Origin: Ilumatobacter coccineus YM16-304
GTDB taxonomy: Bacteria > Actinomycetota > Acidimicrobiia > Acidimicrobiales > Ilumatobacteraceae
Reading direction: 5' to 3'
DNA length: 64,000 nucleotides
Assembly: GCF_000348785.1 (NCBI RefSeq)
Contig: NC_020520.1
Coordinates: forward strand, 1,798,001 to 1,862,000
Positions 15,737 through 18,716 of this stretch are shown here, piece by piece. A program made the position numbers and the translations under genes. How positions within the stretch are numbered: the first letter of the stretch is position 1; every line of letters begins with the position of its first letter. The notes beneath the pieces are model-generated. The model saw only the letters and a list, made by a program, of their open reading frames with translations. It was not told where the DNA came from and ran no database searches.

Positions 15737-16060
15737 CTACGGCTGCTCGATATCGGCGAGGATCGCTGCGATGTCTTGTGCATCGTCGAGGAGGCGGACG
15801 ACATCGACACGATCGCCGGCGACGAAGTAGAACCAGCCGCACGGGAAGTCCGGGACTCGGCGGACTCGGAGCCCATCGATGCCGCACATTTCGCCCACCC
15901 GCGGTGAGCCGGCGCCAGGCATCCGTCCGATTGCGTCGAGCGCACCGATTGCTGTATTGAAGAATCGTTCGCCGAGGTCCGAGCCGCCCTCGGCTCGGTA
16001 GTACCGGGTTCGCTCGACGAGATCGTCCTCGGCTCGCGGGCGAAGGATCGGGCGTGTCAC
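15737..16060 (-). CDS. parE: ParE/RelE-family toxin
   Basis: A 107-residue toxin-fold protein. The N-terminal RPRAEDDLVERTRYYRAEGG, the central ALDAIGRMPGAGSPR, GLRVRRVPDFPCGWFYFV and the VVRLLDDAQDIAAIL C-terminus match the ParE pattern; ParE proteins poison DNA gyrase. It overlaps the upstream antitoxin gene by 4 nt, the usual antitoxin-first order. Activity and gyrase targeting are inferred from the family; RelE-type RNase activity is the alternative. Confidence 0.85.
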   Translation of the reverse strand: MTRPILRPRAEDDLVERTRYYRAEGGSDLGERFFNTAIGALDAIGRMPGAGSPRVGEMCGIDGLRVRRVPDFPCGWFYFVAGDRVDVVRLLDDAQDIAAILADIEQP

Positions 16061-16308
16061 GCGTCGGTGCCGAGTGCTCGCTTGCGCAGTTCGTCGATCA
16101 CGTCATCGGTTGCTTCGCGGCCGTCGCCGGATGCGAGCCCGTCGGCGATCAGATCTCTGAGTCGCTGAGATGCTTGCTCGCGCTGGTCGCGGCGGATCAA
16201 CTCGCGAAGGTATTCGCTCGTGTTGCCGTAGCTCCCGTCGCTGACTCGCGCGTCGATGTAGTCCCGCATGTTCTCCGGGAGTGCGAAGCTCATCGTGTTT
16301 CGACTCAT
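16057..16308 (-). CDS. parD: ParD-family antitoxin
   Basis: An 83-residue protein with an N-terminal ribbon-helix-helix (MSFALPENMRDYIDARV, then SYGNTSEYLRELIRRDQ) and an acidic C-terminal tail that should wrap the toxin. It neutralises the adjacent ParE and should repress the operon. A classical promoter with an inverted repeat lies just upstream (16306-16348). The mRNA is probably leaderless, since the -10 element is 6 nt from the ATG. Confidence 0.88.
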   Translation of the reverse strand: MSRNTMSFALPENMRDYIDARVSDGSYGNTSEYLRELIRRDQREQASQRLRDLIADGLASGDGREATDDVIDELRKRALGTDA

Positions 16309-16592: not shown

Positions 16593-17300
16593 TCAGTTGG
16601 TGGTGTCGATGTATCTGGTGGCGGACGGCGTGTCTGCTGCCAGTGCGGTTCGGAGAGTGTCGATGGCGGTGATGGCACGTTGGTGTGCATTGGGCCCGAG
16701 TGCGTCGACGATGAAGAGTGCGTCGGCTGTGGCGTCGGTGATGGCGGTGCGTGTGGTTTGGCGCCAGTTCCATCGCCTGCAGGTGACGCCGGTGTCGTCG
16801 CGCCAGATCGGCTCACCGGGCTCGGGATGCTCCACCACGCTGAGCCCGTCGCTGATCGTGTGGAACTGCTCGGTGCCTTCGGCACGAACGAGTCGTGCCG
16901 GGCCGAGGTAGGCGTCGAGGTTCTCGACGCCGATGGGAATTCGTTGGAGCAGCGAGATCGCGTTGTACGTATCGGTGATCTTGTTGATCCGTGGGAGCCC
17001 ATTCTTTTGGGCACGTCGCGACAGTGCGTCAGCGCTCGGTCGTGTGCGGTTCGGTTTGGCGCCGAACGCCCGGTAGGTGTCTCGCCAGTGTTCGAGGTGT
17101 TCATCATCGAGATCGATGTCGCACGAATCGGCTGCTTGGAGCCAGTGATCACTATCGGTATCGGAGGGACCGGCGCTGATGCCGGCCACGACCATGAGCC
17201 CTGCGCAGTAGTCGGGACGGAGATCGAAGATCGCTTGGTCGATGCTGACCGCTGCGAGCCACTCATCGAGATCTACTTCTGACCAAGCATGTTGCACCAT
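16593..17300 (-). CDS. B3/B4 tRNA-binding-domain protein (PheT-like editing fold)
   Basis: A 235-residue protein resembling the B3/B4 editing domain of phenylalanyl-tRNA synthetase beta subunit as a free-standing protein. Supporting stretches are DLRPDYCAGLMVVAGI, NKITDTYNAISLLQRIPIGVENLDAY (the asparagine-rich strand typical of B3/B4), and a terminal segment with EPGEPIWRDDTGVTCRRWNWRQ. Free-standing members are often called PheT-like proteins and may hydrolyse mischarged aminoacyl-tRNA. It is divergent from an XRE-cupin regulator with a shared palindromic promoter. An in-frame ATG at 17324 inside the palindrome would add 8 residues, but the ATG at 17300 fits the leaderless pattern. Confidence 0.75.
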   Translation of the reverse strand: MVQHAWSEVDLDEWLAAVSIDQAIFDLRPDYCAGLMVVAGISAGPSDTDSDHWLQAADSCDIDLDDEHLEHWRDTYRAFGAKPNRTRPSADALSRRAQKNGLPRINKITDTYNAISLLQRIPIGVENLDAYLGPARLVRAEGTEQFHTISDGLSVVEHPEPGEPIWRDDTGVTCRRWNWRQTTRTAITDATADALFIVDALGPNAHQRAITAIDTLRTALAADTPSATRYIDTTN

Positions 17301-17325
17301 GTCGGGCACTATAGTGCCCGACATG
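17298..17325. promoter_or_regulatory. 28-bp perfect palindrome: symmetric leaderless promoter and likely operator
   Basis: The sequence from 17298 to 17325 is its own reverse complement, centred between 17311 and 17312 in CTATAG. Its two ends are CATG. On the plus strand TATAGT (17310-17315) is 7 nt before the XRE ATG (17323). On the minus strand the mirror TATAGT (17313-17308) is 7 nt before the B3/B4 ATG (17300). Both transcripts would therefore start on their start codons. No clear -35 box is seen. Confidence 0.7.
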
Positions 17326-17895
17326 GAAGTGAGTGCATCGGTGGGTGCGGTCGTGCGTGCGGAACGCAAGGAGCGGGGTTGGTCGCTCGATCGCGCTGCA
17401 ACCCGGCTAGGGGTGAGTCGGCGTCTGCTGACGCAGATCGAATCGGGATCGGCGAACCCGTCGCTGTCGACGCTGCTGTCGATCGCGAACGGGTTCGGAA
17501 TCGACCTGACCAACCTGGTCGCGCAGGCTCCCGGCTCCCGTGACGCGGTGCTGCAGACGGACAACGGATCTGCTGCGGTGCTGTGGTCCACCGATGCGGG
17601 AAGCGCGGCGCGACTCCTCGTGGGGATGGGGCCGCTCGAGATGTGGGTCTGGCGACTCGAGCCCGGTGAGTCGAAACGATCCGACGCGCACAGCGCCGGC
17701 AGCCTCGAAGCGCTGATCGTGAACTCCGGTCGAGTCGAGGTCGACATCGAGGGCGGCGAGACCCACACCGTGGATACTGGCCAGTCACTGATCTTCGCTG
17801 CCGACGTCGACCACGGATACCGCAGTGTCGCCGACGGTGCCGCCGAGTTCCACCTTGCCGTGTTCGATCCCATCGACAGCCCCGCCGGCCGCTGA
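17323..17895 (+). CDS. XRE-family regulator with C-terminal cupin domain
   Basis: A 190-residue regulator. The HTH at residues 9-62 reads VVRAERKERGWSLDRAATRL then VSRRLLTQIESG and NPSLSTLLSIANGFGIDL. The C-terminal cupin (about 110-180) shows LEPGESKRSDAHSAG, SLEALIVNSGRVEVDI and GQSLIFAADVDHGYRS, probably a ligand sensor. It probably binds the 28-bp palindrome that spans its own start and that of the divergent B3/B4 gene. Its stop overlaps the start of the transporter gene by one base, so the regulator and transporter are one unit. The ligand could be an amino acid or derivative, inferred from the neighbours. Confidence 0.88.
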   Translation: MEVSASVGAVVRAERKERGWSLDRAATRLGVSRRLLTQIESGSANPSLSTLLSIANGFGIDLTNLVAQAPGSRDAVLQTDNGSAAVLWSTDAGSAARLLVGMGPLEMWVWRLEPGESKRSDAHSAGSLEALIVNSGRVEVDIEGGETHTVDTGQSLIFAADVDHGYRSVADGAAEFHLAVFDPIDSPAGR

Positions 17896-18716
17896 TGCCC
17901 GCTCTGCTCGCCATCGCATCAGCGTGCACGTTCGGTGTCGCCGACTTCCTCGGCGGACTCGCCACCCGCAAAGCAGCCGTCGTCGCGGTCACGCTGATCA
18001 CGAACCTCGCAGGTGCCGCTCTCGCCGTCGTGCTCGTCGTCGCGATCGACGGGGACTGGTCCATCGAGGCCGTCGCCTGGGGCGCAGCCGGAGGACTCGC
18101 GGGCCTCGCCGGGCTCCTGCTTCTCTACCAGGGTCTGGCCGAGGGACCGAACCGCCTCGTGAGCCCACTGAGCGCAGTGGTCGCCGCAGCGGTTCCCGTG
18201 ATCGTCGGTGTGGCGCTCGGTGATCGCCCGGCGATGATCGCGCTCGTCGGGATCTGTGTGGTCCCGGTCGCGGTGTGGCTCGTGGCAGGCGGCGACATCG
18301 CCTTGGCCGGCGCGTCCCGGCGACCACTCGCGCTCGGCGTCGGAGCCGGCCTGGGATTCGGCACGTTCTTCGTGCTCCTTGCTCAGACCCCCGATGACGC
18401 CGGGGCCGTGCCGCTGCTCATGGCGAGAGCGACCTCGGTCACCGTGCTCCTCGCCGCCACCCTCGTTACCCGACCGCCAACACCCGACAGATCGACCGTC
18501 GGCATCGCCGTCGCAGCGGGCGCACTCGACATGACCGCCAACGGTCTCTTCCTGTGGTCCACACTCGACGGCGACCTCGCCATCGTCGGGGCGCTCGTCA
18601 GCCTCTTCCCGGCCACCACCGTGCTCCTCGCCGTGATCTTCCTCAACGAACGACTCGACCGCAAACAATCCCTCGGCCTCGCGCTCGCCGTCACCGCCGC
18701 CGCACTCCTCAGCTGA
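17895..18716 (+). CDS. EamA/DMT-family transporter
   Basis: A 273-residue inner-membrane protein with about ten predicted helices in two EamA halves. The first half starts LLAIASACTFGVADFLGGLA and the second has GALVSLFPATTVLLAVIFLNERLDRKQSLGLALAV, the signature end of DMT exporters. Many relatives export amino acids or metabolites. It overlaps the XRE-cupin stop by one base (TGATG). With the divergent B3/B4 protein it may form a system that clears or exports an unwanted amino acid; this is inference from gene order. Confidence 0.88.
   Translation: MPALLAIASACTFGVADFLGGLATRKAAVVAVTLITNLAGAALAVVLVVAIDGDWSIEAVAWGAAGGLAGLAGLLLLYQGLAEGPNRLVSPLSAVVAAAVPVIVGVALGDRPAMIALVGICVVPVAVWLVAGGDIALAGASRRPLALGVGAGLGFGTFFVLLAQTPDDAGAVPLLMARATSVTVLLAATLVTRPPTPDRSTVGIAVAAGALDMTANGLFLWSTLDGDLAIVGALVSLFPATTVLLAVIFLNERLDRKQSLGLALAVTAAALLS

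Follow-up and report, generated by a model that had tools for sequence, protein, structure and literature searches.

In this study we identify a perfect 30-bp palindrome in Ilumatobacter coccineus YM16-304, in a 64,000-nucleotide stretch of contig NC_020520.1 (the window), that contains the start codons of two divergent genes. We propose, with a probability of about 0.8, that this palindrome is the operator of the adjoining XRE-cupin protein, that its central -10 element can be used by RNA polymerase in either orientation, and that a dimer of the protein represses both leaderless transcripts. The palindrome, CCATGTCGGGCACTATAGTGCCCGACATGG, consists of 15-nt arms that match at 100% with zero gap. 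The first-pass annotation had described it as 28 bp at 17298-17325; its letters are exact, but one further C/G pair extends the symmetry to 30 bp. Base composition predicts 0.025 perfect palindromes of 30 bp for the 4.83-Mb genome and 0.0003 for the window. The 22-bp core is present in a single copy genome-wide, allowing up to 3 mismatches, and a search with the 16-bp core finds no second genomic site within 2 mismatches. Direct reading of the sequence bears out the earlier claim that each direction has a TATAGT followed 7 nt later by a start codon, with the ATGs at 17323 on the plus strand and 17300 on the minus strand; the two opposed copies overlap in TATA and share the core ACTATAGT. The features of the locus are collected in Table 1.

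Table 1. Coordinates of the features at the palindrome locus, counted from the first letter of the window
Feature	Position	Strand	Basis
30-bp perfect palindrome (predicted operator, two-way promoter, both start codons)	17297..17326	.	Sequence; chance expectation; perfect in sister genome
Predicted -10 TATAGT, XRE-cupin/EamA transcript	17310..17315	+	Sequence; matched in place and spacing (6-7 nt) in 32/36 relatives
Predicted -10 TATAGT, B3/4 transcript, overlapping the opposite -10 in TATA	17308..17313	-	Sequence; kept in sister genome
Putative operator half-site GGGCAC (relatives: GTGCAC)	17304..17309	+	Comparison with relatives
Putative mirror half-site, GTGCCC on +, GGGCAC read on -	17314..17319	-	Comparison with relatives
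Putative third half-site TGCAC, XRE-promoter side only, over B3/4 codons 2-3	17293..17297	+	Same offset in family relatives
XRE-cupin regulator, 190 aa; TSS predicted at the A of its ATG (17323)	17323..17895	+	Domain matches
B3/4-domain protein, CtdA-like, 235 aa; TSS predicted at the A of its ATG (17300)	16593..17300	-	Domain and structure-relative match
EamA-family transporter; start overlaps regulator stop	17895..18716	+	Domain match; same order in sister genome

The plus-strand protein combines an N-terminal XRE helix-turn-helix domain (HTH_3, 6.9e-14) with a C-terminal cupin domain (Cupin_2, 3.3e-12), the domain layout of the XRE-cupin local regulators, and, as in that class, it adjoins an enzyme gene (B3/4) and a transporter gene (EamA) whose regulation by it is predicted. 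The EamA gene is presumably carried on the regulator transcript. A longer XRE frame starting upstream at 17242 was set aside because the starts in relatives directly follow the motif. On the other side, directly past the B3/4 gene, a ParD/ParE-like toxin-antitoxin pair lies at 15737-16308 on the minus strand. The closest solved relative of the B3/4 protein is CtdA (PDB 9f7e, E 1.5e-44 over residues 19-224), with which it shares FGAKP.RT, YNAIS and GVTCRRWNWRQ. CtdA is a canavanyl-tRNA(Arg) deacylase, which by trans-editing gives protection from canavanine, an analogue of arginine, and activity is retained in a homologue that shares 35% identity with the first CtdA (PMC10018355). The window protein is likewise a standalone B3/4 protein; from this homology it is a probable tRNA-proofreading enzyme, and canavanyl-tRNA deacylation is its predicted activity. 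Taken together with the EamA transporter and the cupin sensor, a toxic-amino-acid defence unit appears to be the likeliest role of the module, and by analogy the ligand of the regulator may be canavanine or another toxic amino acid.

It has been reported that the -10 element of M. tuberculosis is TANNNT without a conserved -35 and that, of its genes with a primary start site, 26% are leaderless (PMC3898074); another study puts the predicted leaderless share of actinobacterial genes at over 20% (PMC3160421). Within the window, the distances from TANNNT to candidate starts show a maximum at 6-8 nt, with 8 hits over 33 ORFs and 0-2 at any other spacing, which indicates that leaderless starts are ordinary here. 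Both genes at the palindrome show the signature of leaderless genes, a TANNNT about 12 bp upstream that leaves no room for a Shine-Dalgarno sequence, the first T lying 13 nt before each ATG, and the C-A-T start context agrees with the mycobacterial preference for transcription start sites. We found no -35-like hexamer on either side of the palindrome and no terminator at the locus. A leadered RNA would fold the ATG into a hairpin (a 56 nt fold, -31.5 kcal/mol, z = -6.7), which argues for starts at the ATG.

Support comes from relatives elsewhere in Actinomycetota, where, if the XRE-cupin gene is present, the usual gene order is XRE followed by B3/4 in one direction. Among 36 other, non-redundant actinobacterial XRE->B3/4 operons aligned on the -10, 32 have a TANNNT 6 nt (21 loci) or 7 nt (11 loci) before the XRE start. 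Typically the -10 is preceded by GTGCAC and followed by GCAC(T), and all 32 motif loci have T-G-C unchanged on both sides; the strict form of the motif is found in 23 of 37 loci versus 0.04% of shuffled upstream sequences. By this comparison, the module as a rule has an operator-like inverted repeat with the -10 of a predicted leaderless regulator gene at its centre. The arrangement recurs in relatives within the Ilumatobacteraceae, where XRE homologues 46-54% identical to the window protein head B3/4 operons behind sites such as GTGCGT TATAGT GCACGAC ATGG (L180) and GTGCGA TATAGT GCACTCA ATGG (L179), to be set beside GGGCAC TATAGT GCCCGAC ATGG in the window. This recurrence, in the 32 of 36 operons and in the family, supports the reading of the element as operator, promoter and leaderless start in one that had been put forward from the single locus, and suggests a leaderless, operator-embedded promoter that is probably autoregulated. 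Compared with the one-way site, the Ilumatobacter site shows mirror changes in its half-sites, from GTGC to GGGC on one side and from GCAC to GCCC on the other, and it also completes the reverse -10. The one-way family relatives have GTGCGATATAGTGCAC-like sites that lack a reverse TANNNT, and the reverse -10 accompanies the inverted B3/4 gene. From its wide distribution, the one-way form is likely ancestral.

Many relatives also carry an extra TGCAC half-site upstream, and the copy in the window stands at an L180-like offset. Because the XRE side alone has it, the two directions may be unequal. The earlier claim of equal control of both genes therefore stands in part: comparison supports a shared site, whereas equality finds no support. 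The extra half-site would fit the XRE direction being the older one; it is the weakest part of the proposal, and coding may also constrain it. Several other loci deserve mention in their own right. In L085 an EamA-type transporter gene is divergent from an XRE-cupin gene that starts at about 1500; AGTGCAGTATATTGCACT lies at the transporter start, with TATACT 5 nt before the ATG on the transporter strand, and the same operator type is apparently used there for a transporter. In Actinomyces naeslundii (L067) a one-way XRE->B3/4 operon is preceded by CCATGTAGTGCACTATGATGCACTACATGG, a 30-bp palindrome that is imperfect. In the family relative L178, a small membrane protein, probably DMT-like, is encoded between XRE and B3/4 at about 2050-2480, replacing the full EamA gene.

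The module is present in 2 of 11 Ilumatobacter genomes, the one studied here and that of Ilumatobacter sp. OFTM217, whose XRE and B3/4 proteins are 80% and 75% identical to those in the window. The first-pass annotation had suggested looking for the palindrome beside homologous XRE/B3/4 pairs, and in this sister genome it is perfect again through paired changes: the site, CCATGCCGGGCACTATAGTGCCCGGCATGG, has the same gene order and spacings and differs at two positions only, which are mirror mates (17302 T/C with 17321 A/G). The 200 bp flanking the palindrome on each side are 77.5% identical between the two genomes. Such mirror-paired substitutions are expected if both arms are read alike. With only two genomes showing the two-way form, the case for selection on it rests on this one mirror substitution pair.

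The connection between motif and regulator is suggested by the recognition helix of the XRE protein, which mostly begins with SRR in motif-bearing loci. The motif is found in 0 of 10 SKG-helix loci of the Actinomadura type, which have divergent XRE and B3/4-EamA genes, and the same search pattern recovers 30 of 36 loci of the motif group. These Actinomadura loci had been considered as a parallel case and were rejected, the motif being absent. A search for a TGCAC-type regulon in the Ilumatobacter genome gave fewer matches than the reversed control. The operator could instead belong to a different, global regulator, or its symmetry could be due to chance, given that binding by the XRE-cupin protein in its own organism is a prediction; however, the element is a single copy in the genome, the motif accompanies XRE-B3/4 modules across the phylum, and the chance expectation is as low as stated above, so we regard this explanation as very improbable. 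Slimmer still is the chance that the palindrome acts not as a DNA operator but as a hairpin in longer, leadered transcripts, serving as an attenuator or a translation block. The fold is indeed very stable, and the mirror-paired substitutions preserve a hairpin as well, but what the relatives keep is half-sites around an asymmetric -10 centre, 6-7 nt from the start codon, and not a hairpin; besides, the motif tracks the type of recognition helix, and the locus has yielded no terminator.

More serious, although still unlikely, is the explanation that only the XRE direction works, the reverse -10 being a by-product of operator symmetry and the B3/4 promoter lying inside the XRE gene. The one-way form is the rule elsewhere and the extra half-site stands on the XRE side only, both of which favour it. 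Yet in both species the reverse -10 and the B3/4 ATG are exactly 7 nt apart, the reverse -10 arrives together with the inverted gene, being missing from the one-way sites of the family, and a B3/4 transcript that began further upstream would fold its ATG into the strong hairpin. We therefore prefer the two-way operator-promoter, which would work as follows. An XRE-cupin dimer on the two GGGCAC half-sites would cover both -10s and both start codons and silence both transcripts simultaneously; repression rather than activation is suggested by analogy. When the cupin domain senses its ligand the dimer would leave, and polymerase could then start at the A of either ATG, giving leaderless mRNAs for XRE-EamA and for B3/4, although two polymerases could not occupy the site in both orientations together.

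How this arrangement may have arisen can also be pictured. The ancestor would have been an XRE->B3/4 operon with a one-way operator and leaderless promoter; with B3/4 on the opposite strand in Ilumatobacter, the site would have been made symmetric to serve it. We give roughly even odds to this fuller proposal, in which a one-way operator-embedded leaderless promoter became fully symmetric and two-way and so kept an opposite-strand gene in the regulon without extra regulatory DNA, with one dimer site gating two mutually exclusive polymerase orientations and tying the synthesis of the regulator to that of its target. If true, it would provide a route by which co-regulation survives operon rearrangement and would show concretely how a one-way promoter may turn into a two-way one. 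The control of bidirectional promoters has been described as hardly studied (PMC12825309), and the present candidate is very small and fully symmetric, its regulator is encoded next door, and its natural one-way relatives can serve as controls. It also offers a testable operator and regulator for the widespread actinobacterial B3/4 (CtdA-like) tRNA-editing module, for which our literature search found no report; nor did it find any paper describing the motif.

How unusual such a promoter is depends on which part of it is considered. Divergent start sites that share a -10 are a known class, with common spacings of 18, 10 and 23 bp (PMC12825309). The predicted start sites at 17300 and 17323 are 23 bp apart, within the 7-25 bp typical of bidirectional promoters, and the opposed -10s overlap. 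The Ilumatobacter genome has a single occurrence of the general two-way leaderless pattern. In 397 genomes of the phylum, CAT-N7-ANTATANT-N7-ATG has 41 matches (own included) versus 33 in the reversed control, mostly in low-GC genomes and away from gene starts, and the bare pattern is largely chance. Among the matches inspected, it separates two recognisable divergent genes in three further genomes, a MarR regulator and a small protein in one and a DUF523-type gene and MnmA-NifU in two related ones, and none of these sites is fully symmetric. In the first of these (L133:1501-1528), a TTAGTATACTAA core is common to the divergent starts of the MarR regulator and a 90-aa protein, both leaderless by pattern; from its sequence this would be the same design arrived at independently and with less symmetry. 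L141, with 13/14 symmetric positions, was rejected as a further case because its site does not separate two genes. Only the two Ilumatobacter genomes yielded the fully symmetric two-way form. Of the earlier description of an unusual, fully symmetric leaderless promoter, the rarity of the symmetric two-way form is upheld, whereas leaderless starts are ordinary and a shared -10 belongs to a known class; each ingredient is common and the fully symmetric form is rare.

In leaderless genes of Actinobacteria, as in the genes here, TANNNT precedes the start codon by about 12 bp and a Shine-Dalgarno sequence is missing, and in M. tuberculosis prpD (Rv1130) and Rv1129c form a divergent target/regulator pair in which both mRNAs are leaderless; here, however, two predicted leaderless genes share one symmetric element, and the available text of these studies reports no such sharing (PMC3160421, PMC3898074). 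The promoters of Warman et al. resemble the present one in their opposed start sites and overlapping -10, with 23 bp among the common classes, but they are pseudo-symmetric, come from E. coli and Salmonella, and have regulators that are activators or one-directional, whereas the predicted dimer site here coincides with the entire promoter and the two start codons (PMC12825309, PMC10268837). Described ctdA genes lie beside canavanine-degradation operons or under guanidine riboswitches (PMC10018355), in contrast to the predicted XRE-cupin operator here. In Pseudomonas, XRE-cupin regulators recognise palindromes and inhibit adjacent genes; ErfA, PsdR and PauR share the domain layout of the window protein and act at palindromic dimer sites on neighbouring enzyme or transporter genes, some with autoregulation, while in Ilumatobacter the palindrome is present and binding and repression are predicted. 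These regulators are proteobacterial, and the available text of that work describes no single symmetric site that holds the -10s and start codons of two divergent genes (PMC7901475). Thus leaderless starts, bidirectional promoters and local XRE-cupin repression are each known, and it is their complete superposition that is new.
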